From Sinorhizobium saheli (GTDB lineage: Bacteria > Pseudomonadota > Alphaproteobacteria > Rhizobiales > Rhizobiaceae): 64,000 nt of DNA. The position numbers were made by a program, and so were the translations under genes. Location of the stretch: positions 1-64,000 of the forward strand of contig NZ_LNQB01000094.1 in assembly GCF_001651875.1 (NCBI RefSeq), given 5' to 3'. Numbering within the stretch: the first letter of the stretch is position 1; each line of letters starts with the position of its first letter. Of the stretch, positions 26,342-38,234 are shown one piece after another. The notes beneath the pieces were generated by a model that saw only the letters and a list, made by a program, of their open reading frames with translations, was not told the DNA's origin and searched no databases.

Positions 26342-26728
26342 TCATGCCGCCTCGATGTCCGTGCGCGAAAAATCATCACCTTTGAAGAGCAGCGGTTCGT
26401 TGCGCGTCTTGGCGAGCGCATAGGAAAAGCAGTCGCCATAGTTCAGGCCCGCCGGATGTCGGCCCTTGCCGTAGCTGCGCCAGGCTCGCCTTGCAGCGGC
26501 GATCTGATCCGCGTCGACGGCGATGATCTCGACGCCGGCTTTGTGAAGCCAGAGATCTAGTTCTGCAGCCCCGGCTTCGCCCAGGCGCGCCTCGATGACT
26601 ATGGCAATCTCGAGGACTGTCGCAGCCGACATGAAGCGTCGGGAAGCGTCGACGACTTTTTGTTCGTAGCTTTCTGCTTCCGGCTCGTTGAATGCGATCG
26701 CTACGACGGCGGAGGTGTCGATGATCAT
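26342..26728 (-). CDS. vapC: VapC-type PIN-domain toxin
   Basis: 128 residues with the PIN-domain acidic residues in place: MIIDTSAVVAIAF (Asp4), SAATVLEIAIVIE (Glu), and NYGDCFSYALAKTRNEPLLF (Asp near 98). Such proteins are magnesium-dependent RNases that cut tRNA or rRNA when free of antitoxin. The start overlaps the antitoxin stop by one base (TGATG). Intact. Confidence 0.9.
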   Translation of the reverse strand: MIIDTSAVVAIAFNEPEAESYEQKVVDASRRFMSAATVLEIAIVIEARLGEAGAAELDLWLHKAGVEIIAVDADQIAAARRAWRSYGKGRHPAGLNYGDCFSYALAKTRNEPLLFKGDDFSRTDIEAA

Positions 26729-26982
26729 CAGCTGGGGAGTCCGTTTTCGTCATATCCCAAAATCTCGTCGGCGGTGCGGCTATCGAGCACCGGTAGCTTC
26801 GCCCAGCGTCTGCGGCTGGCGGCAAGCTCGTCGAGAAGAACGTCGCGATTTCCGGCGTTGGCGACGCGCCGAAGCCGTTCCTCCAGTGCCCGGCGGGTCG
26901 CCATGGTAATGGTTTCACCGGTTTTCTCTGCCAGTGCCTTGGCGAGGCGTTCCGTCTCGACGTCTTTGATGCTGAGGGCCAT
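26728..26982 (-). CDS. vapB: VapB-type antitoxin
   Basis: 84 residues. The N-terminal ribbon-helix-helix-like region MALSIKDVETERLAKALAEK is followed by the Arg-rich ATRRALEERLRRVA and a C-terminal toxin-binding tail with TADEILGYDENGLPS, typical of the Rv0623/PSK VapB family. It precedes vapC in one transcript. The upstream region on the same strand holds a direct repeat GGAACCAA (twice), which may be part of the autoregulatory operator. Confidence 0.88.
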   Translation of the reverse strand: MALSIKDVETERLAKALAEKTGETITMATRRALEERLRRVANAGNRDVLLDELAASRRRWAKLPVLDSRTADEILGYDENGLPS

Positions 26983-27118
26983 TCTTGGTTCCTTGGTTCC
27001 TAATCAGCTATATTCTACCTTGTCCCTGCGTTGGCGCAAGCGCGAGGAACTGGTCTTACCGCTGGTCGCCATGACACAGCATACGGAACGCCAATCTTAA
27101 AAGGCCCGAAGACTGGCG

Positions 27119-27562
27119 TGATCGGTCGCCTGATAAACCGTACCCTCACCGGCGAATAAGGCCAAACCGGCGGGCTTCGTCCAGCAGGTCCCGGACGGAG
27201 GAGGGCTGCCATTTTTTGCCGCGCGCACAGGCCGTTCTCCCATCTGGTCCAGTTGCGCGGCAATGTCGCGCAGCGACAGATCGGGATCGGCAATGGCGAT
27301 CGCCGCCACCATCTTCATCAGATGGTCTTCGGGAGCGCGGCGAGGGGACCGGGCCAGGAGTCCTTTTTCCGCCAGCTTTTCTCGGACCCAGGCGATGAAC
27401 GGCACGGCGGAGGCGCTCGACGGTCCAGTCGTGACCGCGGCGATTGAGCACCCGCACGACATTGTCCCAACTGTGCTGAGGGCGGAGTTGCCGCACCATC
27501 GGCAGCCACGTCTGCGCGGATGAAATGAGCTCGTCGCACGCGCATGTCTGATCCAAGCGCAA
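27119..27562 (-). pseudogene. Frameshifted remnant of a mobile-element protein, family uncertain
   Basis: Pieces in different minus-strand frames form one plausible protein: SWDNVVRVLNRRGHDWTVER from the frame starting 27562, then FIAWVREKLAEKGLL and DLSLRDIAAQLDQMGERPVR in a second frame, then WQPSSVRDLLDEARRFGLI back in the first. The pattern (wVLN..W...RL, then LR.IA..L...G, then WSPSSV..LL) resembles the DNA-binding tail of some site-specific recombinases, but I cannot name the family with confidence. At least two frameshifts. It abuts the napD start. Confidence 0.4.
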
Positions 27563-27806
27563 CTTATCACATCTCCAGCGCGGTCATCGTCACGATCCCG
27601 CATATGGAGGAGCGCGTCGTCGCTCGGCTAGCCGACATGCCGAACGTCGAGGTTTACGCGCACGAGGCGGGAAAGATCGTAGTCGTGATCGAGGGAAAGA
27701 GCACGGGGACGCTTGGCGAAATCCTGTCGCGCATCTCTCTGCTGGATGGCGGCCAACATGGTTTTTGAGCATGTCGAAACTCAAGGAGATGATTGCCATG
27801 ACCGGC
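27544..27806 (+). pseudogene. napD: napD (nitrate reductase maturation chaperone), frameshifted
   Basis: Codes YHISSAVIVTIPHMEERVVA and EVYAHEAGKIVVVIEGKS, typical NapD, but the frame turns at about 27750 to GGQHGF and stops at 27768 after 74 residues. In another frame the family-like C-terminus continues (ANMVFEHVETQGDD) up to the napA start. A few bases around GGATGGCGG have been lost or gained. NapD binds the Tat signal of NapA and guides its maturation. napE/napF, which should lie upstream, are missing. Confidence 0.8.
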
Positions 27807-28336
27807 GAACTGACGCGGCGTGATATCTTGAAGGCGCATGCGGCCGGCATCGCCGCCGCCACTGCGGGCATTGCGCTTCCCGCCGCGGCACAGCCCGTGC
27901 CGGGCGGTGTGGAAGCGCTGCAGATAAGTGGTCGAAAGCGCCGTGCCGCTTCTGCGGCACCGGCTGCGGCGTCATGGTCGGCGTCAAGGAGGGACAGGTC
28001 GTCGCCACCCATGGCGACATGCAGGCCGAGGTCAACCGTGGCCTCAACTGCATCAAGGGCTACTTCCTGTCGAAGATCATGTACGGGGCCGACCGGCTGA
28101 AGACGCCCAACCGCTGCCTCTCCTGCCACAAGCGAGAACTGACGCAGAAGTCAGGCGCGCCGATGATCAGCGTCACGCACTACATGACGCGGGAAGGGCA
28201 GATGCTCGCGGACGTTTCGCCTCGGCGCTATTTCTGCACGGCCTGCCATGTGCCGCAGGCCGACGTGCGCCCGCTCGTCGGCAACACCTTCCGGGACATG
28301 AGCGAGATGGGCGTCAAGCATGCGGGGAGCGAGTAG
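27798..28336 (+). pseudogene. napA: napA'-'napB deletion fusion, also frameshifted
   Basis: Starts like NapA with a Tat signal ([20 protein letters not shown]). At about 27925 one base is missing (CAGATAAG where CAGATCAAG is expected). The NapA 4Fe-4S region ([40 protein letters not shown]) continues in the new frame. After about 100 NapA residues it passes in frame straight into the NapB C-terminus ([38 protein letters not shown]), keeping both heme motifs. The molybdopterin part of NapA and the start of NapB are deleted, so no nitrate reductase can be made. Confidence 0.85.
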
Positions 28337-28339
28337 GCC

Positions 28340-29044
28340 ATGGCTCGCATCAAGCGCCTTCTGCTCTGAGTGTGGAACATTCTGACCACGCCGGCCGCAA
28401 CGCTCAGCCTCGCCTTCCTGATGCTCGGCGGCTTCGTCGGCGGCGTGATCTTCTGGGGCGCCTTCAACACCGCGTTGGAGCTTACCAACACCGAGGAGTT
28501 TTGCGTCTCCTGTCATGAGATGCGGACTAACGTCTATGAGGAGCTGACGCGCACGGTTCATTTTTCTAACCGCTCCGGCGTGCGGGCGAGCTGCCCGGAT
28601 TGCCATGTTCCGCACGAATGGACGGATAAGATCGCTCGCAAGATGCAGGCCTCGAAGGAAGTCTGGGGCAAGATCTTCGGAACCATCAACACGCGCGAGA
28701 AATTCCTCGACCACCGGCTGGAGCTCGCCAAGCATGAATGGGCTCGGCTCAAGGCCAATGACAGCCTTGAATGCCGCAACTGTCACTCCTCGGTGGCGAT
28801 GGACCTCTCGAAGCAGACGCAACGCGCCGCCGAGATCCATACCCGCTACCTGCTGCCCGGAAAGGCGACCTGCATCGATTGCCACAAGGGCATTGCGCAC
28901 GAACTGCCGAACATGCAAGGCGTCGAGCCCGGCTGGAAGCTGCCGCCGGAACTGGAGGGAGAGACACTGCCCGCTGCTTCCGTGATCGATGAGCTTAGGA
29001 AGGCTATGAACGATGCCCACAGGATGGTAGCCTCTGAGAACTGA
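28340..29044 (+). pseudogene. napC: napC (NirT/NapC tetraheme quinol dehydrogenase), early stop
   Basis: ATG 28340 codes MARIKRLLL and then a TGA at 28367, probably from a TGG Trp codon. Beyond it the frame is open and well conserved: membrane helix ([20 protein letters not shown]) and four heme sites CVSCH, CPDCH, CRNCH and CIDCH. A GTG directly after the stop (28370) could restart translation but would remove the N-terminal charged residues before the anchor. NapC passes electrons from quinol to NapB, which is lost here. Confidence 0.85.
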
Positions 29045-29196
29045 CTTCAAGCCCTGCATTCATGGGACGATTTGTTCCATACTGGTTCGTTGGCCATCTT
29101 GCACAAAGATGGACTATAGAGGCACGAGAGTGCGGGAGCCGGCCGCGACCCGATCGCGACGAGAGCGCATAGTTTATTCCTGCAGTGGAAAAAGGA

Positions 29197-30714
29197 ATGC
29201 AGTCAAAGAGCATCGTCGAGGGGACGCGTCTGGGGCGCTCGCTCATAAGATGGCAACTCGATCGCACCTCGGCCTACATACTCGCGACGGCGGCGGTGTC
29301 GAGCGTCGTTGCCCTGCGCATCGGGTTATGGCAGCTCTTGGGCGGTAGCGCCATTCTCTTTTCCTTCATCCCGGCGATCCTTCTCGTCGTCATGGCCGGC
29401 CGATCGGGCCTGGTCGCCTTTGCGGCCGGGCTGTCATTTGCCGCAGCGACCGCTCTTCAGCAAGGAGAGGGCGGCTCCCATCCGAGCGTCGTCGAGTTGA
29501 TGTCCTTCGGAGTGGCGGTGCTTCTGACCATGGCTCTCGCGGAAGTGCTCCAGGCGGCCAGACGCGTCATCGCCAAGACAGAGGACGTCGTGAAGGCCCG
29601 CGATGCGCATCTGAGATCAATATTGGATACTGTTCCGGACGCCACGGTGGTCAGCGCCACCGATGGTACAATCGTGTCCTTCAACGCCGCTGCCGTGCGG
29701 CAGTTCGGATATGCGGAGGAGGAAGTCGTTGGCCAGAACCTGCGCATATTGATGCCGCAACCCTATCGTCACGAACACGACGGATACATGCAGCGATACC
29801 TGAGCACTGGCGAAAAGCGGATCATCGGCATCGACCGCGTCGTCTCCGGGCAACGGAAGGATGGATCGACGTTTCCGATGAAGCTCGCCGTGGGAGAGAT
29901 GCGGTCAGGCGGAGAGAGGTTCTTCACAGGCTTCATCAGAGACCTCACGGAACGGGAGGAGTCCGCCGCGAGGCTCGAGCAAATCCAGGCTGAACTAGCG
30001 CGCCTTGCCCGGCTCAACGAGATGGGCGAGATGGCGTCGACGCTTGCCCACGAACTGAACCAGCCGTTGTCGGCGATCGCCAACTATTCGCATGGCTGTA
30101 CGAGGCTGTTGCGTGACATGGACGACGCCGTCGCTACGCGAATGCGCGAGGCGCTGGAAGAGGTGGCGAGCCAGTCGCTGCGGGCCGGCCAGATCATCAA
30201 ACATCTCAGGGAATTCGTCACGAAGGGCGAGACAGAAAAGGCGCCGGAAGACATTCGCAAGCTGGTGGAGGAGGCGGCTGCGCTGGCTCTGGTCGGCTCC
30301 CGCGAGCAGGGGGTCCGGACCGTGTTCGAATATCTGCCCGGTGCCGCAATGGTGATGGTGGACCGGATCCAGGTCCAGCAGGTCCTCATCAATCTGATGC
30401 GCAACGCGATCGAGGCGATGCGCCACGTCGACCGCCGAGAGCTGACGATCCGCACGATGCCGGCCGGTGCGGGGGAGGTTGCCGTCGTCGTCGAAGACAC
30501 GGGCGGAGGCATTCCGGAGGAAATCTCCGGCCAGCTCTTCAAGCCATTCATCACGACCAAAGCAAGCGGAATGGGAATCGGACTGTCCATTTCGAAGCGG
30601 ATCGTCGAGGCGCATGGCGGTGAGATGACCGTCTCGAAAAATGCGGCGGGTGGGGCTACTTTCCGATTCACGCTGCCGGCCTATGTAGATGAACGGATCG
30701 GTGCCAATGACTGA
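29197..30714 (+). CDS. fixL: Oxygen-sensing histidine kinase FixL
   Basis: 505 residues from ATG 29197 (GGAAAAAGGA upstream), the same length as S. meliloti FixL; a GTG at 29185 would add four residues. Membrane segments lie in residues 28-120. The heme PAS domain (about 135-255) carries the proximal heme ligand His194 ([12 protein letters not shown]). The HisKA phospho-acceptor is His285 ([10 protein letters not shown]). The HATPase domain follows ([28 protein letters not shown]). Low oxygen releases the kinase, which phosphorylates FixJ. It overlaps fixJ by 8 bp. Confidence 0.97.
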
Positions 30715-31321
30715 CTATACGGTGCACATTGTCGACGACGAAGAGGCGGTCAGAAAGTCGCTAGCCTTCATGCTGACGATGAATGGCTTCGCGGTCAGAA
30801 TCCATCAATCGGCCGAGGCCTTCCTCGCCTTCGCACCGGACGTCAGAAACGGGGTTCTCGTGACGGATCTGAGAATGCCGGACATGTCCGGCGTCGACCT
30901 CCTGCGCAACCTTGGCGATCGGAAGATCAAGATACCTTCAATCGTGATAACCGGGCACGGCGACGTGCCCATGGCGGTGGAGGCCATGAAAGCGGGGGCG
31001 GTGGACTTCATCGAGAAACCATTTGAGGACTCCGTGATCATTGAGGCCATCGAGAGAGCCTCGGCACATCTGGTCGTTCCGGATGCTGATACGGACGAGG
31101 TCAATGACATTCAGGCGAGGCTCGAGACGCTGAGTGAGAGAGAACGCCAGGTGCTCTCGGCCGTCGTGGCGGGCCTTCCCAACAAGTCGATCGCCTATGA
31201 CCTGGACATCAGCCCACGCACCGTCGAGGTGCACCGCGCCAATGTGATGGCCAAGATGAAGGCGAAGAGCCTTCCCCATCTCGTGCGAATGGCTCTGGCC
31301 GCAGGTTTCGGTCCTTCCTGA
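30707..31321 (+). CDS. fixJ: Response regulator FixJ
   Basis: 204 residues from ATG 30707, the S. meliloti length. The receiver domain has the acidic pair Asp10/Asp11 (HIVDDEEAV), the phosphorylation site Asp54 ([12 protein letters not shown]), Thr/Ser at ITGHGD and Lys at IEKPF. The C-terminal LuxR-type HTH is [20 protein letters not shown] and [16 protein letters not shown]. When phosphorylated by FixL it activates fixK and nifA promoters. Confidence 0.97.
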
Positions 31322-31418
31322 TCTGCTGAGTTGATCTCGCGCAATGCGTCGCATCGCCGCAAGCGCTTTAATGCTGGCACACGGCGGACAGACGCACGCC
31401 AGATGAGCGGGATTCAAA

Positions 31419-31766
31419 TTGTTGGTTGGAAGAAGCATAGTCGTCGTTGCAGCGGATCAAGGCCTCCGGCGGTCCGTTGCATTCGCGCTGGAAGTCGAAG
31501 GATACCCGACCGAGTCCTACGACACCGTGCAGAAGGCTGAAGCCTCTAGCCGGGAAGCGCTCTGCACGATTCTCGACGATGAGATGTTGAAGTCAGAGCT
31601 CTTGGCGGCCACGCAATTGCTCAAGGATATTGGACGCCGGGCGATACTGCTGGTCGATGGCTTGTCGGCCCTTCAGCCACGTGCGGACTACGCGATCTTG
31701 ACCAAACCGTTCACTGGCGCCGACCTGCTCGGCATGATCAACAGCCAGACCGAAGCGGCTAAGTAG
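31419..31766 (+). CDS. fixT: FixT, receiver-like inhibitor of FixL
   Basis: 115 residues starting at TTG 31419. The fold resembles a response-regulator receiver (SIVVVAADQGLRRSVAFALE, AILLVDGLSAL, AILTKPFTGADLLGMI), keeping the late Lys-Pro but lacking the phosphorylatable Asp of real receivers (LCTILDDEML in that region). That is the FixT pattern: an anti-kinase that blocks FixL autophosphorylation. It lies between fixJ and fixK, as in the pSymA fixK1 region. No ATG in frame; the start codon is the least certain part. Confidence 0.82.
   Translation: MLVGRSIVVVAADQGLRRSVAFALEVEGYPTESYDTVQKAEASSREALCTILDDEMLKSELLAATQLLKDIGRRAILLVDGLSALQPRADYAILTKPFTGADLLGMINSQTEAAK
31759..31766 (+). promoter_or_regulatory. 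FixJ-box-like site upstream of fixK
   Basis: CTAAGTAG matches 7 of 8 bases of the FixJ consensus GTAMGTAG and is followed by TTTCCCTTAG. It lies 80 bp before the fixK start, overlapping the end of fixT, a sensible distance for FixJ activation of fixK. Confidence 0.5.
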
Positions 31767-31845
31767 TTTCCCTTAGTGATCTAACCGAATTTCTCCAGGT
31801 CACGCGAATTGGCAATCTGTCCCCACACATAACAGGGGATAAGAC

Positions 31846-32484
31846 ATGTACGCCGCTGCACAAATCCAACAACAGTCCTTCGAGCAGGCCGAACACCTTC
31901 CACAGGCCCAAGTTTCCAGGCCCCATCTTGTCGCCACCTACAAGGCGGGTCGTGAGATCTATGCCGAGGGCGATTTGAACGACAAGTTCTATCAGATTTC
32001 TGCAGGAGCCGTGCGCGTCTACCGGCTGCTTTCGGACGGACGTCGACAGGTCGTATCCTTTCACCTACCAGGCGAAATGTTCGGTTTCGAAGCGGGGTCC
32101 AACCATTCTTTCTTTGCCGAAGCCATCACCGAAACAACACTAGCCGTCTTCGGGCGCAGGCAGATGCAGGAGCGTTCGCGAGACCTTCTCGCGCTGGCGT
32201 TGACCGGCATGGCGCGAGCTCAGCAGCATCTTCTGGTGATCGGCAGGCAATGTGCCGTGGAGCGGATTGCCGCATTCCTCGTCGATCTTTGCGAACGTCA
32301 GGGAGGAGGCAGGCTGCTACGCTTGCCCATGTCGCGGCAGGATATAGCGGACTATCTCGGCCTGACGATCGAAACCGTGTCGCGCGTGGTGACGCAACTG
32401 AAGGAGCGCAGCGTCATCGCGCTAAGGGACGCGAGGACGATCGACATCGTGAAGCCGGACGCTCTGCGTTTGCTCTGCAACTGA
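31846..32484 (+). CDS. fixK: Crp/FNR-family activator FixK
   Basis: 212 residues. The cyclic-nucleotide-like domain (YKAGREIYAEGDLNDKFYQI, RQVVSFHLPGEMFGFE) is followed by the FNR-type HTH, MSRQDIADYLGLTIETVSRV, whose E-x-x-S-R recognises TTGAT half-sites. The N-terminal Cys cluster of FNR is absent, as in all FixK, so oxygen control comes from FixLJ. Targets in this window carry boxes at 32906, 36587, 41181 and 41975. Confidence 0.96.
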   Translation: MYAAAQIQQQSFEQAEHLPQAQVSRPHLVATYKAGREIYAEGDLNDKFYQISAGAVRVYRLLSDGRRQVVSFHLPGEMFGFEAGSNHSFFAEAITETTLAVFGRRQMQERSRDLLALALTGMARAQQHLLVIGRQCAVERIAAFLVDLCERQGGGRLLRLPMSRQDIADYLGLTIETVSRVVTQLKERSVIALRDARTIDIVKPDALRLLCN

Positions 32485-32565: not shown

Positions 32566-32859
32566 ATGTTCGTTAGGGAAATGTCTCGCGAAGAATGCCA
32601 AGCGCTCGTCGCGGCCGGACGTCTGGCGCGATTGGCGTGCTGCAAGGACGGCCAGCCCTACATAGTGCCGATCACCTATGCGCACTCCGGCAACTGCCTC
32701 CACTGCTTTTCCATGCCGGGCCTCCTGCCGCAGACGAATTGCGCACCGACCGACGTTTCCATCCTCGTACGGCTATCTCCCGTTTATCCCGAATCTGCCC
32801 TACGAAATGCGAGCGTTGATGAGTGGCTCGCTCCCCGCCCACGTCTTGTCCTTCGCTGA
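32566..32859 (+). pseudogene. Pyridoxamine-5'-phosphate-oxidase-like flavin protein, 3'-truncated
   Basis: The first 50 residues (REMSREECQALVAAGRLARL, CCKDGQPYIVPITYAHSGNC, LHCFSMPG) match the start of the PNPOx-like FMN-binding split-barrel family, normally about 140-160 residues. After FSMPG the similarity ends and the frame runs 47 more codons into unrelated sequence (WLAPRPRLVLR). The FMN-binding second half is missing. A homologue lies between fixK and fixN in related plasmids, so this is probably a deletion relic. It has a good ribosome-binding site and may still be translated. Confidence 0.65.
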
Positions 32860-32905: not shown

Positions 32906-32919
32906 TTGATCTGAATCAA
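32906..32919 (+). promoter_or_regulatory. FixK/FNR box of fixNOQP
   Basis: Perfect palindrome TTGATCTGAATCAA (TTGAT-N4-ATCAA), 99 bp before the fixN start, ideally placed for FixK-dependent activation in low oxygen. Confidence 0.92.
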
Positions 32920-33018: not shown

Positions 33019-34638
33019 ATGAAACACACAGTCGAGATGGTCGTGCTTGCCGTCGGCGCCTTCCTGGCGCTGGTCGGCGCCGGCTTTGCCCAGGACCGCC
33101 TGTTCGGCGCGCATATGTGGGTGCTGTTCTTCGTGCTGCTTGGCGGCACCTTGGTGCTGATGCGCCGCGTTGACTTCCGTCCAGCCGTCGCGGGCCATCC
33201 GAGCCTTCGGAGCGAATACTTCGACGAGGTCGTCAAATACGGCGTCATCGCCACTGTGTTCTGGGGGGTGGTCGGCTTTCTCGTCGGCGACGTCGTCGCC
33301 CTGCAACTCGCCTTTCCCGATCTCAACGTCGAGCCTTGGTTCAACTTCGGACGCATGCGGCCGCTCCACACCTCGGCCGTGATCTTTGCATTCGGCGGCA
33401 ACGCCCTGATCGCCACGTCCTTCTATGTGGTTCAACGCACGAGCCGCGCCCGCCTCTTCGGCGGCGATCTCGGCTGGTTCGTTTTCTGGGGCTACCAGCT
33501 CTTCATCGTCCTTGCGGCGACCGGTTACCTGCTCGGCATCACCCAGTCGCGCGAGTACGCGGAACCGGAATGGTATGTGGACCTCTGGCTGACCGTCGTA
33601 TGGGTCGCCTATCTCGTCGTCTTCCTCGGCACGATCCTGAAGCGCAAGGAGCCGCACATCTATGTGGCGAACTGGTTCTATCTCGGATTCATCGTCACCA
33701 TCGCGATGCTGCACGTGGTCAACAACCTTGCAGTGCCGGTCTCGTTCCTCGGCTCCAAAAGCTATTCGGCTTTCTCCGGGGTGCAGGACGCGTTGACGCA
33801 GTGGTGGTACGGCCACAACGCCGTCGGCTTCTTTCTGACGGCCGGATTCCTGGCGATGATGTACTACTTCATCCCCAAGCAGGTGAACCGCCCCGTCTAT
33901 TCCTACCGCCTGTCGATCATCCACTTCTGGGCGCTGATCTTCATGTATATCTGGGCGGGTCCCCACCACCTGCACTACACGGCGCTGCCGGACTGGGCGC
34001 AGACGCTCGGCATGGTCTTCTCCGTCATGCTCTGGATGCCCTCCTGGGGCGGCATGATCAACGGCCTGATGACCCTCTCGGGCGCGTGGGACAAGGTCCG
34101 GACCGATCCCATCGTTCGCATGATGGTCATGGCAGTCGCCTTCTACGGCATGGCGACCTTCGAAGGACCGATGATGTCGATCAAGACGGTCAATTCGCTC
34201 AGCCACTACACCGACTGGACCATTGGTCATGTCCATTCCGGCGCGCTCGGCTGGAACGGCCTCATCACCTTCGGCGCCATCTACTATCTGGTGCCGAAAC
34301 TCTGGAACCGCAAGCGGCTCTACAGCCTGCAGATGGTCAACTGGCACTTCTGGCTCGCGACCCTCGGCATCGTCGTCTATGCCGCGACCATGTGGGTTGC
34401 CGGCATCCAGCAGGGTCTGATGTGGCGCGAATATGACGACCAAGGCTTCCTCGTCTATTCCTTTGCGGAATCGGTCGCGGCGATGTTCCCCTACTATGTC
34501 ATGCGTGCCGCCGGCGGTGCCCTGTTCCTCTCCGGCGCAGTCATCATGGCCTTCAACGTAACAATGACCATCCTTGGCCGCGTCCGCGATGAAGCAGCGA
34601 CCCTGGATGCCGCGCCGATGCCGGCGCCCGCGGAATAG
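33019..34638 (+). CDS. fixN: cbb3-type cytochrome oxidase subunit I
   Basis: 539 residues, at least 12 membrane helices, CcoN type. Metal-ligand regions are visible: [19 protein letters not shown] (low-spin heme His), [16 protein letters not shown] (CuB His), [16 protein letters not shown] (CuB His pair) and the C-terminal [20 protein letters not shown]. It is the catalytic subunit of the high-affinity oxidase used in nodules. First gene of fixNOQP behind a perfect FixK box. Confidence 0.97.
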
Positions 34639-34649
34639 GAGGGCAGATC

Positions 34650-35381
34650 ATGTCCATTCTCGATAAACACGCGCTACTCGAACGCAACGCCACGCTGCTC
34701 CTCGTCGGATCCCTGCTCGTCGTCTCCATCGGCGGGATCGTGGAAATCGCGCCGCTCTTCTATCTCGAAAACACCATCGAGAAGGTCGAGGGCATGAGGC
34801 CCTATTCGCCGCTGGAGCTCGCCGGGCGCGACATCTACATCCGTGAGGGCTGTTACGTCTGCCACAGCCAGATGATCCGCCCGTTCCGCGACGAGGTGGA
34901 ACGATACGGCCACTACTCGCTGGCGGCGGAGTCAATGTACGACCATCCGTTCCAGTGGGGGTCGAAACGCACGGGGCCGGACCTCGCCCGCGTCGGCGAC
35001 CGCTACTCCAATGAATGGCACGTTCAGCACATGATCGAGCCGCGCTCGGTCGTGCCGGAATCGGTGATGCCGAGCTATGCCTTCCTCAAGGAAACGCCGC
35101 TCGAGGTGAAGAACGTGGCCACGAACCTGAAGGCCAACAGGGCGGTCGGCGTGCCCTATACGGCAGAGATGATCGACAACGCGGCCGCGGACTTGAAGGC
35201 TCAGGCCGACCCGAATGCCGACGCTTCCGGCGTCGAGTCCCGCTATCCCAAGGCCAAGCTCGGCGACTTCGACGGTGATCCGAAGAAGCTTACGGAGATG
35301 GACGCGCTCATCGCCTACCTCCAGATGCTGGGCACGCTCGTCGACTTCTCCACCTATGACGACACAACCGGATATCGCTGA
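34650..35381 (+). CDS. fixO: cbb3 oxidase monoheme cytochrome c subunit
   Basis: 243 residues with an N-terminal membrane anchor ([20 protein letters not shown]) and one heme c site CYVCH at residues 68-72. The sixth ligand probably comes from the MPSYAFL segment. CcoO family. It passes electrons from FixP to FixN. 11 bp after fixN. Confidence 0.97.
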
Positions 35382-35392
35382 GGGGAACGCAC

Positions 35393-35545
35393 ATGGAAAC
35401 CTACACGGCCATGCGCCATTTCGCCGATAGCTGGGGACTGCTAGCCTTGACCCTCTTTTTCCTCGGCGTCGTCCTATTCATTTTCCGGCCGGGCGCCAAG
35501 AAGGCCGCCGCTCAGGCCTCTGCCATCCCCCTGAAGGAGGACTGA
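35393..35545 (+). CDS. fixQ: cbb3 oxidase small subunit FixQ
   Basis: 50 residues. One membrane helix (SWGLLALTLFFLGVVLFIFR) is followed by a basic/Ala-rich tail (PGAKKAAAQASAIPLKED), the CcoQ pattern. ATG 35393 has GAGGGGAAC upstream. It lies between fixO and fixP with tight spacing. It stabilises the oxidase complex. Confidence 0.93.
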   Translation: METYTAMRHFADSWGLLALTLFFLGVVLFIFRPGAKKAAAQASAIPLKED

Positions 35546-35548
35546 TCC

Positions 35549-36418
35549 ATGGCGGACGAGCACAAGCATGTTGACGAGGTCAGCGGCGTAGAGACCACAG
35601 GGCACGAATGGGACGGCATCCGGGAACTCAACAATCCGATGCCGCGCTGGTGGCTCTACAGCTTCTATGCGACTATTATCTGGGCGATTGGATATGCAAT
35701 CGCCTATCCTTCATGGCCGATGCTGACTGAGGCGACCAGGGGCGTGCTCGGCTATTCCAGCCGAGCTGAAGTCACTGCGGAGCTGTCCGACGCCAAGGCA
35801 GCGCAGGCCGGCAACGTAGAGCGCATCGCCTCCGACAAGATCGAGGACATCATGGCGGATCCGGAACTGAGGCAGTTCGCGATCTCGGCCGGCGCGTCCG
35901 CCTTCAAAGTGAACTGTGCGCAATGCCACGGCTCAGGCGCGGCCGGTGGCAAGGGGTTCCCGAACCTGAATGACGACGAGTGGCTCTGGGGCGGCAAGCC
36001 CGAGGAGATCTACCAAACGATCGCGCATGGCATCCGCCACGCGGGAGACGGCGAGACCCGCGTTTCGGAAATGCCGGCCTTCGGCGACATGTTGGCGCCC
36101 GAAGAGATCCGCGCGACCGCAGCCTATGTGGCGAGCCTTACCGGAACACCATCAAGCCCGGCGCTCGTGGAGCCGGGCAAGCAGGTCTTCGCCGATAATT
36201 GCGCCTCTTGCCATGGTGCGGATGCGAAGGGCAGCCGCGAATTCGGCGCGCCCAACCTCGCCGACGCGATCTGGCTGAAAGGCGAGGGTGAGCAGGCGAT
36301 CATAGACCAGATGCGATTGCCGAAGCATGGCGTCATGCCCGCCTGGCTGCAGCGCATCGGTGATCCGGTGGTGAAAGAGCTGGCGATCTTCGTCCATTCC
36401 CTGGGCGGCGGCGAATAG
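35549..36418 (+). CDS. fixP: cbb3 oxidase diheme cytochrome c subunit
   Basis: 289 residues. The N-terminal part holds GHEWDGIRELNNPMPRWWLY, the CcoP signature, then one membrane helix. Two heme c sites follow: CAQCH at 123-127 and CASCH at 218-222, each with a downstream Met ligand region (EMPAFGDM; HGVMPAW). It receives electrons from the bc1 complex. Last gene of fixNOQP. Confidence 0.97.
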   Translation: MADEHKHVDEVSGVETTGHEWDGIRELNNPMPRWWLYSFYATIIWAIGYAIAYPSWPMLTEATRGVLGYSSRAEVTAELSDAKAAQAGNVERIASDKIEDIMADPELRQFAISAGASAFKVNCAQCHGSGAAGGKGFPNLNDDEWLWGGKPEEIYQTIAHGIRHAGDGETRVSEMPAFGDMLAPEEIRATAAYVASLTGTPSSPALVEPGKQVFADNCASCHGADAKGSREFGAPNLADAIWLKGEGEQAIIDQMRLPKHGVMPAWLQRIGDPVVKELAIFVHSLGGGE

Positions 36419-36433
36419 CAAGCGCGAAATCCA

Positions 36434-36462
36434 GGCGGCCGCGCGAACGCAGTGCGGCCGCC
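36434..36462 (+). terminator. Hairpin after fixP
   Basis: GGCGGCCGC (36434-36442) and GCGGCCGCC (36454-36462) form a perfect 9-bp stem with an 11-nt loop, 15 bp after the fixP stop. There is no T run, so it may attenuate or protect the message rather than terminate fully. Confidence 0.5.
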
Positions 36463-36586
36463 GGAGCAAAACGGCGATTCGAAACGACCGCCGCGATAGT
36501 TCGATCCATTCAAATGGTCTGACACACGGTCGAGCTATTTCGGAGAGGGTCGCTCTCACTGCCGGTGGCGGCGCCCCCCCGCCAAC

Positions 36587-36600
36587 TTGACGCAGATCAA
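36587..36600 (+). promoter_or_regulatory. FixK/FNR box of fixGHIS
   Basis: TTGACGCAGATCAA (TTGAC-N4-ATCAA), 66 bp before the fixG start; one half-site is the common TTGAC variant. Confidence 0.85.
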
Positions 36601-36665
36601 GGCGCGCAACCGCCACATGGCGCAAAACCGCGTCTGAGAATCGAATTCTAATCGGGACTGTCCAA

Positions 36666-38234
36666 ATGCTTCACCAGCCCGCCCATAAAGCTGGCTCCGT
36701 CGAGCGGCTCGAAGCCGAGCCCGTCAATGCCGCGCGTCAACGCAGGCCGCTCTACGAGAAGCGGCGGAAGATTTTCCCCAAACGAGCCGAGGGCCGCTTC
36801 CGCCGGTTCAAATGGCTGGTGATGCTGGTGACGCTCAGCATCTACTATCTGACGCCCTGGATCCGATGGGACCGAGGTGCGCATGCGCCCGACCAGGCTG
36901 TTCTGATCGATCTAGGGGCGCGGCGGTTCTATTTCTTCTTTATCGAGATCTGGCCGCAGGAGTTCTTTTTCGTCGCCGGGCTTCTCGTCATGGCGGGCTT
37001 CGGCCTCTTTCTGGTAACCTCGGCGGTCGGGCGCGCGTGGTGCGGCTACGCCTGTCCGCAAACGGTCTGGGTAGATCTCTTTCTGGTAATTGAGCGCTTC
37101 ATCGAGGGCGACCGCAATGCGCGCATGCGCCTCGATGCCGGGCCATGGACGCTCGACAAGATTCGCAAGCGGGTTGCCAAGCATTCGATCTGGCTGGTGA
37201 TCGGCGTTGTGACGGGCGGCGCCTGGATATTCTACTTCGCCGACGCTCCCACGCTCCTCAAGAGCTTCGTCGCTCTTCAGGCGGCGCCGGCGGCCTACAT
37301 GACCGTGGCGACCCTTACCGCCACCACCTACGTGTTTGGCGGTCTCATGCGCGAGCAGGTCTGCACCTATATGTGCCCCTGGCCGCGCATACAGGCTGCG
37401 ATGCTCGATGAAAACTCGCTGGTCGTCACCTATAAGGACTGGCGCGGCGAGACCCGTTCACGGCATGCCAAGAAGGCCGCCGCAGCCGGCGAGGCGGTCG
37501 GCGACTGCGTCGACTGCAATGCCTGCGTTGCGGTTTGTCCGATGGGGATCGATATCCGTGACGGCCAGCAACTTGAATGCATCACCTGTGCGCTCTGCAT
37601 CGATGCCTGCGACGGCGTCATGGACAAGCTCGGCCGCGAACGCGGTTTGATCTCCTATGCGACCCTCAGCGACTATGCCGCCAACATGGCTCTTGCCACT
37701 AATGGTGGTGCGACTGCGATCGACACCCGGCGCGTGCGCGGCGCCAACGGCGCCTTCGTTGACGGCATCAGGCATTTCGATTGGCGGATCATCTTCCGCC
37801 CGCGTGTCCTTGTCTATTTCGGCATCTGGGTGCTCGTTGGCCTCGGCCTGCTCTACGCGCTCGTCTCACGCGACAGGCTGGAGTTGAACGTTCTGCATGA
37901 TCGCAATCCGCAATATGTGGTCGAGTCCGACGGATCCGTCCGCAACGGCTACATGATCAAGCTGCTCAATATGATCCCCGAGCAGCGGCGCATTACGCTC
38001 ACGCTCGAAGGGATGCCGTCGGCGCAGATGCGGATTGCAGGCCAGGGCGACGGTCGCAGCTTTCTAGTTGCCATCGATCCGGACAAGGTCACGTCGCTCA
38101 AGGTGTTCGTCACAATACCGAAAGCAAAGCTTCCGGAGGCCGAGCAAGGCTTCTCTTTCAAAGCCGAAGACCCCTCCAGCCACGAGCGAGATGTCTACCG
38201 CGCGAATTTCAATCAACCCGCAGCAGCAAAGTGA
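36666..38234 (+). CDS. fixG: FixG, ferredoxin-like membrane protein for cbb3/Cu assembly
   Basis: 522 residues, CcoG family. It has several membrane helices, a polyferredoxin region with CGYACPQTVW and CTYMCPWPRIQ, and two 4Fe-4S motifs, CVDCNACVAVCPMGID and CITCALCIDACDGVMD. The C-terminal half is an Ig-like periplasmic domain. In other bacteria CcoG reduces copper for cbb3 assembly. It heads the fixGHIS operon. Confidence 0.95.
   Translation: MLHQPAHKAGSVERLEAEPVNAARQRRPLYEKRRKIFPKRAEGRFRRFKWLVMLVTLSIYYLTPWIRWDRGAHAPDQAVLIDLGARRFYFFFIEIWPQEFFFVAGLLVMAGFGLFLVTSAVGRAWCGYACPQTVWVDLFLVIERFIEGDRNARMRLDAGPWTLDKIRKRVAKHSIWLVIGVVTGGAWIFYFADAPTLLKSFVALQAAPAAYMTVATLTATTYVFGGLMREQVCTYMCPWPRIQAAMLDENSLVVTYKDWRGETRSRHAKKAAAAGEAVGDCVDCNACVAVCPMGIDIRDGQQLECITCALCIDACDGVMDKLGRERGLISYATLSDYAANMALATNGGATAIDTRRVRGANGAFVDGIRHFDWRIIFRPRVLVYFGIWVLVGLGLLYALVSRDRLELNVLHDRNPQYVVESDGSVRNGYMIKLLNMIPEQRRITLTLEGMPSAQMRIAGQGDGRSFLVAIDPDKVTSLKVFVTIPKAKLPEAEQGFSFKAEDPSSHERDVYRANFNQPAAAK

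Follow-up and report, generated by a model that had tools for sequence, protein, structure and literature searches.

The nap operon of Sinorhizobium meliloti 1021 pSymA, napEFDABC (PMC4064527), is the described system with which the locus reported here shares its gene order and its position upstream of fixL. In S. meliloti the denitrification genes are described as being coordinated by FixLJ and FixK (PMC4064527), and a published survey lists napEFDABC in 32 of 33 strains (PMC4053727). Duplicated and transferred genes of Sinorhizobium are characterized as short-lived in a population-level study (PMC4040998), and on the symbiotic plasmid of R. etli both homologous recombination between repeats and NHEJ are described as acting (PMC10932983).

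The window, which is the whole stretch of DNA analysed here, comprises bases 1-64000 of contig C94 (67,020 bases) in the draft genome of S. saheli (5.99 Mb, 102 contigs). Sinorhizobium sp. CCBAU 05631 (L001), S. meliloti 1021 pSymA (L002) and the strain's own nap copy on contig C101 served as references for the alignment of lesions, and the genus sample consisted of 33 genomes, the strain's own (G000) included, hence 32 others. Comparison with L001 and L002 revealed what is left of napDABC at 27536-29044, on the upstream side of fixL (Table 1). The region shares homology and synteny with intact fixL-adjacent nap and carries several independent inactivating lesions. In place of an open, full-length napA with molybdopterin domains there is only the frameshifted region of codons 1-104, fused to napB, and no open napB, napC and napD accompany it, since the 5' part of napB is gone, napC is interrupted by TGA and napD is frameshifted. 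Judged from its sequence, the locus represents a fixL-linked nap operon of the pSymA / S. fredii type that multiple lesions have turned into a pseudogene.

Table 1. Features of the nap remnant and of its surroundings (positions in the window)
Feature	Position	Strand	Remarks
Recombinase family protein gene remnant	27116..27536	-	ends at the left nap breakpoint
napD pseudogene	27544..27820	+	8-bp deletion, from alignment
napA 5' remnant (signal peptide, partial Fe4S4 region)	27798..28107	+	from alignment
Probable gene-conversion tract from C101-type nap	27916..28107	+	excess identity to C101
napB 3' remnant, fused to napA	28107..28336	+	both CXXCH motifs retained
napC	28340..29044	+	TGA at codon 10, four CXXCH motifs
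fixL, fixJ, fixT, fixK	29185..32484	+	open frames
Pyridoxamine-oxidase-family gene, truncated, between fixK and fixN	32566..32721	+	
FixK-type box TTGA-N6-TCAA, retained, upstream of fixN	32906..32919	+	
fixN, fixO, fixQ, fixP, fixG	33019..38234	+	open frames

An earlier, sequence-only reading of this DNA had proposed that the nap operon at 27544-29044 was decayed by several lesions, namely a frameshift in napD, a one-base deletion in napA near 27925, a fusion of napA and napB by a large internal deletion, a nonsense codon at the tenth position of napC and the loss of napEF, and the alignments, that with the pSymA nap operon included, recovered each of them. In napD, 8 bp are missing between 27746 and 27747, which creates a new stop at 27766-27768. 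In napA, a single base is deleted after 27925, and near codon 104 the gene is joined to napB at 28107 by a deletion of 2438 bp (size relative to L001) with 1-2 bases of shared sequence at the junction. The join places napB in the shifted napA frame, and the fusion ORF (27974-28336, 120 aa) exceeds both the NapB and the Molybdop_Fe4S4 Pfam cut-offs; the upstream frameshift would cut it off from the napA signal peptide. The TGA of napC (28367-28369) is codon 10 counted from the ATG at 28340, and the frame reopens at GTG 28370 and runs to 29044. Homology to nap starts at 27536, exactly where homology to the recombinase gene stops, and left of this point lies the broken recombinase gene with no nap homology. 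The earlier opinion that the loss is no sequencing slip is also supported: sequencing error is unlikely because the lesions are several, of unlike kinds and flanked by clean open frames. In L001 the spacer between napC and fixL is longer by about 1 kb; the difference was not counted as a further lesion, as the spacer of G012 is short too. An ancestral, shared set of lesions is unsupported, the napA-napB join being present in none of the 32 other genus genomes, where the two halves, if both present, lie about 2.4 kb apart.

The left edge lacks napE and napF together with the promoter region of these genes, as well as the nirK-pseudoazurin block known from L001. The recombinase remnant shows 91.8-92.7% DNA identity to Sinorhizobium plasmid genes (best plasmid records), the match ending at 27536, and its protein aligns from residue 172 to the end and no further, with 57% identity and a disturbed frame. 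This broken gene may be a trace of the rearrangement through which napEF were lost. Further to the left, 26342-26982 contains genes for a PIN-domain protein and an Rv0623-like antitoxin, likely a toxin-antitoxin pair.

On the other side of the remnant, the fix block is 91.6-94.4% identical to L001. The description of the adjoining fixLJTK-fixNOQP genes as intact holds for the named fix genes, all of them open, but not for the pyridoxamine-oxidase-family gene amid them, which ends after residue 52, about 365 bp net having been lost in comparison with L001; the loss stops just short of the FixK-type box of fixN. FixN is single-copy in the strain's own genome, its one other match, on C101, having 25% identity. 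In other genomes an in-frame TAG was seen in FixL matches (G012:C10:66416-67930, G003:C5:74212-75735 and G004:C21:86410-87933), and G012 and G003 possess an additional FixL copy free of stops.

A DNA search of the draft genome located another nap operon, on contig C101. Its NapA has 834 aa and no stops, NapB and NapC are free of stops and above the Pfam cut-offs, and NapE and NapD are open and alignable over most of their length. By NCBIfam scores NapA and the NapC/NirT family pass, and NapB, NapD and NapF fall below the equivalog cut-offs. The NapF of C101 (L008 12070-12381) has 103 aa against 166 in L001 and is without the first two cysteine clusters, which are present in NapF of L001, G013, G015, G026 and G032. 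The 18 kb following this operon match S. meliloti pSymA over 83% of their length with 81% identity, and the best matches of the 20 kb that hold it are replicons of 1.6-2.1 Mb in S. chiapasense, S. mexicanum and S. terangae, with 43-59% covered; its surroundings thus appear to resemble those of large secondary replicons. From its reading frames we infer that the C101 operon works, and by gene content the strain would keep periplasmic nitrate reduction, so that a nitrate reductase test of the strain is expected to be positive, given this operon. The estimated contamination of the draft is 1.23% over 102 contigs, so that a foreign origin of C101 is conceivable in principle. A strain-wide loss of nitrate respiration was rejected, as C101 carries nap with a full NapA.

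These data, together with the distribution of nap in the genus, the C101-like tract and the napC dN/dS described below, favor, with good confidence, an explanation by redundancy: the fixL-linked nap of the pSymA / S. fredii type decayed as a spare beside the C101 operon, and the fix genes were kept since FixN is unbacked. The sequence-only reading had instead concluded that selection dropped periplasmic nitrate reduction on this plasmid, and the loss that this implies is not supported, given the complete napA, napB, napC and napD frames on C101; it had also set fix genes kept by selection against nap genes dropped by it, a contrast that copy number fits better, nap being backed up and FixN not. 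Niche-driven loss, in which nitrate respiration became useless or harmful and was removed by selection while microaerobic respiration was kept, is an unlikely alternative to which the open fix genes adjoining a dead nap lend some support; it is opposed by the full NapA, NapB and NapC frames still held on C101. Nap loss without backup does occur in the genus, which counts against redundancy and for the niche: 8 of the 33 genomes are without a full NapA, one of these genomes being no more than 70% complete, and G023 keeps a remnant without backup. The latter (L052 5159-5880) is a frame-broken remnant of napF and napD in a genome with no full NapA. The short NapF of C101, its NapB, NapD and NapF scores and the estimated contamination of the draft likewise weigh against redundancy.

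The redundancy explanation was compared with the distribution of nap across the genus. Some match is shown by 29 of the 33 genomes (the strain's own included), trivial in G020, G024 and G030 (34 to 52 bases). A single full-length NapA is present in 25 genomes, and no genome has two. A second nap locus was found by DNA in four genomes (G000, G008, G015 and G026) and is broken in each; in G008 it is an isolated napC fragment with a disrupted frame. In G015 and G026, as in the strain studied here, the fixL-linked nap is broken and nap elsewhere is intact. In G015 the remnant is confined to the C-terminal 144 residues of napC, which follow pseudoazurin, and in G026 it consists of napE and part of napF joined to a damaged napC; the linkage of the latter to fixL is deduced from its spacer, where the contig ends. 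Because their junctions differ, the losses in the three genomes look like separate events. All three fixL-adjacent remnants (G000, G015, G026) are accompanied by a full NapA elsewhere, and none of the five intact fixL-adjacent operons (G002, G003, G011, G012, G019) is (one-sided Fisher 0.018, 3 vs 5 genomes, a descriptive value only, the genomes being related). If G023 is added as a backup-less remnant, the counts become 3/4 vs 0/5 and the value, calculated by hand and for the same reason descriptive only, about 0.05.

The eight genomes compared belong to the 20 of 33 with a FixL match of at least 75%. Excluded were G022, whose nap is close to the end of one contig and whose fixL is on a different one; G008 and G023, in which nap and a nap remnant lie about 20 kb and about 16 kb from fixL, respectively, G023 also being without a full NapA; and nine genomes with fixL and no adjoining nap (G004, G009, G010, G013, G014, G017, G018, G027 and G028), five of which have nap elsewhere and four no full NapA. 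The family sample, scored at two candidates per genome, gave matches in 84 of 394 genomes and two result rows in G159 alone, where the rows complement each other as pieces of a single gene split between two contigs. As a control, at least two near-full-length FixN were counted in 17 of the 33 genus genomes, mostly owing to a distant paralogue at 55-58% identity, and two copies at 88% identity or more in 5 of the 33 (counts by hand from result rows, G002 with FixN fragments only being excluded).

With respect to regulation, a perfect TTGA-N6-TCAA box is situated upstream of napE, some 800 bases ahead of napD, in 13 of the 18 operons examined and is absent in the other five (C101, G013, G015, G026 and G032, the last with one far upstream only). 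In each of the three genomes whose fixL-linked nap is dead, the surviving operon belongs to these boxless five. Loss of the box-bearing copy may hence have changed the control of nitrate respiration, and a weaker site is compatible with the absence of a perfect box. By eye, C101, G026 and G032 share a similar AT-rich stretch upstream of napE (L008 11740-11860; L047, L048), perhaps the site of another regulator. A broader generalization is rather doubtful and put forward tentatively: each Sinorhizobium genome would keep one working nap, the FixK-box nap of an incoming symbiotic plasmid would repeatedly die beside a box-less nap on another replicon, and nitrate respiration would leave FixLJ-FixK control while microaerobic respiration stays, the loss being recurrent and directional and not a random loss of spares.

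The state of napC bears on a further alternative. Over 195 codons from 28370, with the divergent last part excluded, dN/dS of napC is 0.065 vs L001, 0.030-0.065 vs eight intact relatives and 0.098 vs C101, against 0.016-0.036 among eight pairs of intact relatives. By these ratios the napC frame appears constrained until lately, with a slightly raised dN/dS. It is conceivable, and in our estimate quite unlikely, that napDAB alone is dead and that reinitiation at GTG 28370 still yields NapC, which would act as a quinol-oxidising cytochrome with other partners. The GTG overlaps the end of the TGA leader, the 224 open codons contain four CXXCH motifs and score 317.2 bits vs the TIGR02161 cut-off of 310.6, and the low dN/dS vs intact relatives points the same way. 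Against such partial retention, no Shine-Dalgarno-like stretch was seen by eye before GTG 28370, the upstream genes and promoter are lost, NapC is supplied by C101, dN/dS vs L001 exceeds that of intact pairs, and an open frame is equally expected from recent decay alone.

Our comparison also revealed that the remnant is a mosaic. Between 27916 and 28107 it is 99.0% identical to C101, the next best among 17 other operons reaching 94.8%. In the two bins before 27916, identity to C101 is 51.6% and 80.3% and that to L001 94.8% and 98.4%; bins past the napA-napB join are 74-94% identical to C101. The tract thus seems to sit inside fredii-like sequence. It includes a run of 48 sites (27917-28084) identical to C101, a length reached in none of 20000 permutations of 479 gap-free variable sites. 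Its left edge is near 27916; on the right it runs up to the deletion, and its limit there is only loosely defined. Excess identity confined in this way to a short stretch with an abrupt left edge, between the two copies of one genome, is as expected of gene conversion. Among 198 plasmid records that match the tract none lies above the 90-95% band (best listed 94.3%), and within it no bases are exclusive to the pair of window and C101. The donor was probably the C101 copy, a relative outside the sample being a possible alternative. The tract differs from C101 by one single-base deletion and two substitutions, which are private and therefore later than the transfer. C101 is also the best match at 28107-28160 (94.4% vs 92.6%) and 28546-28610 (90.8% vs 84.6%), stretches too short for a claim, and a second conversion tract near 28570-28616 was rejected, its run of 18 sites being too short. 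Against a clean two-source picture, the window and G011 share two 38-site runs (6 of 1000 permutations), with weaker shared runs in G032 (28 of 1000) and G026 (38 of 1000), so that other nap lineages may have contributed to the mosaic as well.

That the mosaic and the joins are artefacts of sequencing errors or of misassembly between two nap copies is very improbable, for although a 102-contig draft with two similar copies, one matching the other over a stretch, might give rise to them, an assembly chimera is made unlikely by the changes in the tract that C101 does not have, the one deletion and two substitutions, and the napD deletion, the napC TGA and the recombinase junction lie in sequence unlike C101.

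In the sequence of events that we propose for decay by redundancy, the presence of the C101 operon in the same genome would have made the fixL-linked copy redundant and released it from purifying selection. Its left part would have been removed beside the recombinase gene, and small deletions, the nonsense change and the 2.4-kb deletion with its 1-2 shared bases would then have followed, presumably in this order. While both copies shared a cell, about 190 bp would have been overwritten, probably from the C101 copy; the napA frameshift should postdate this overwriting because it lies inside the tract yet is absent from C101. The fixLJTK-fixNOQP genes would have been retained because FixN has no second copy.

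The nap remnant is real and mostly an ordinary case of spare-copy decay, and its recurrent pattern is mildly interesting; the short life of duplicates in Sinorhizobium is, as a general process, already described (PMC4040998). No earlier report of a decayed or duplicated rhizobial nap was noticed among the matches listed from the open-access literature. A dead operon on one contig does not mean that the pathway is lost from the organism, as another contig may carry it. The recurrent loss of fixL-linked nap is the part that merits a wider test: if it holds in more genomes, together with the survival of a copy without the canonical FixK box, it would provide a testable case of the way in which merging replicons sort redundant respiratory modules, and of the regulator to which nitrate reduction passes in the end.

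Among known systems, the closest annotated relative of the remnant is the operon on plasmid pSS05631a of CCBAU 05631 (L001), with 93.0% and 91.0% identity over the two halves. It differs in that nap is intact, nirK and pseudoazurin genes, which the remnant lacks, lie upstream, about 1 kb more separates napC from fixL, and the pyridoxamine-oxidase-family gene is intact. The DNA identity of S. meliloti 1021 pSymA nap to the two halves is 85.9% and 89.3%. That operon is intact, and a napA mutant is reported to lose most nitrate reductase activity (PMC4064527), whereas the remnant is dead and another copy exists. The population-level study of Sinorhizobium likewise indicates that redundant copies do not last, but concerns other genes, nap not being noticed in its abstract (PMC4040998). 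The two kinds of process that we propose for the nap remnant are the same as those described for the R. etli symbiotic plasmid, where they acted, according to that account, on induced breaks at nifH and not on natural copies of nap (PMC10932983).
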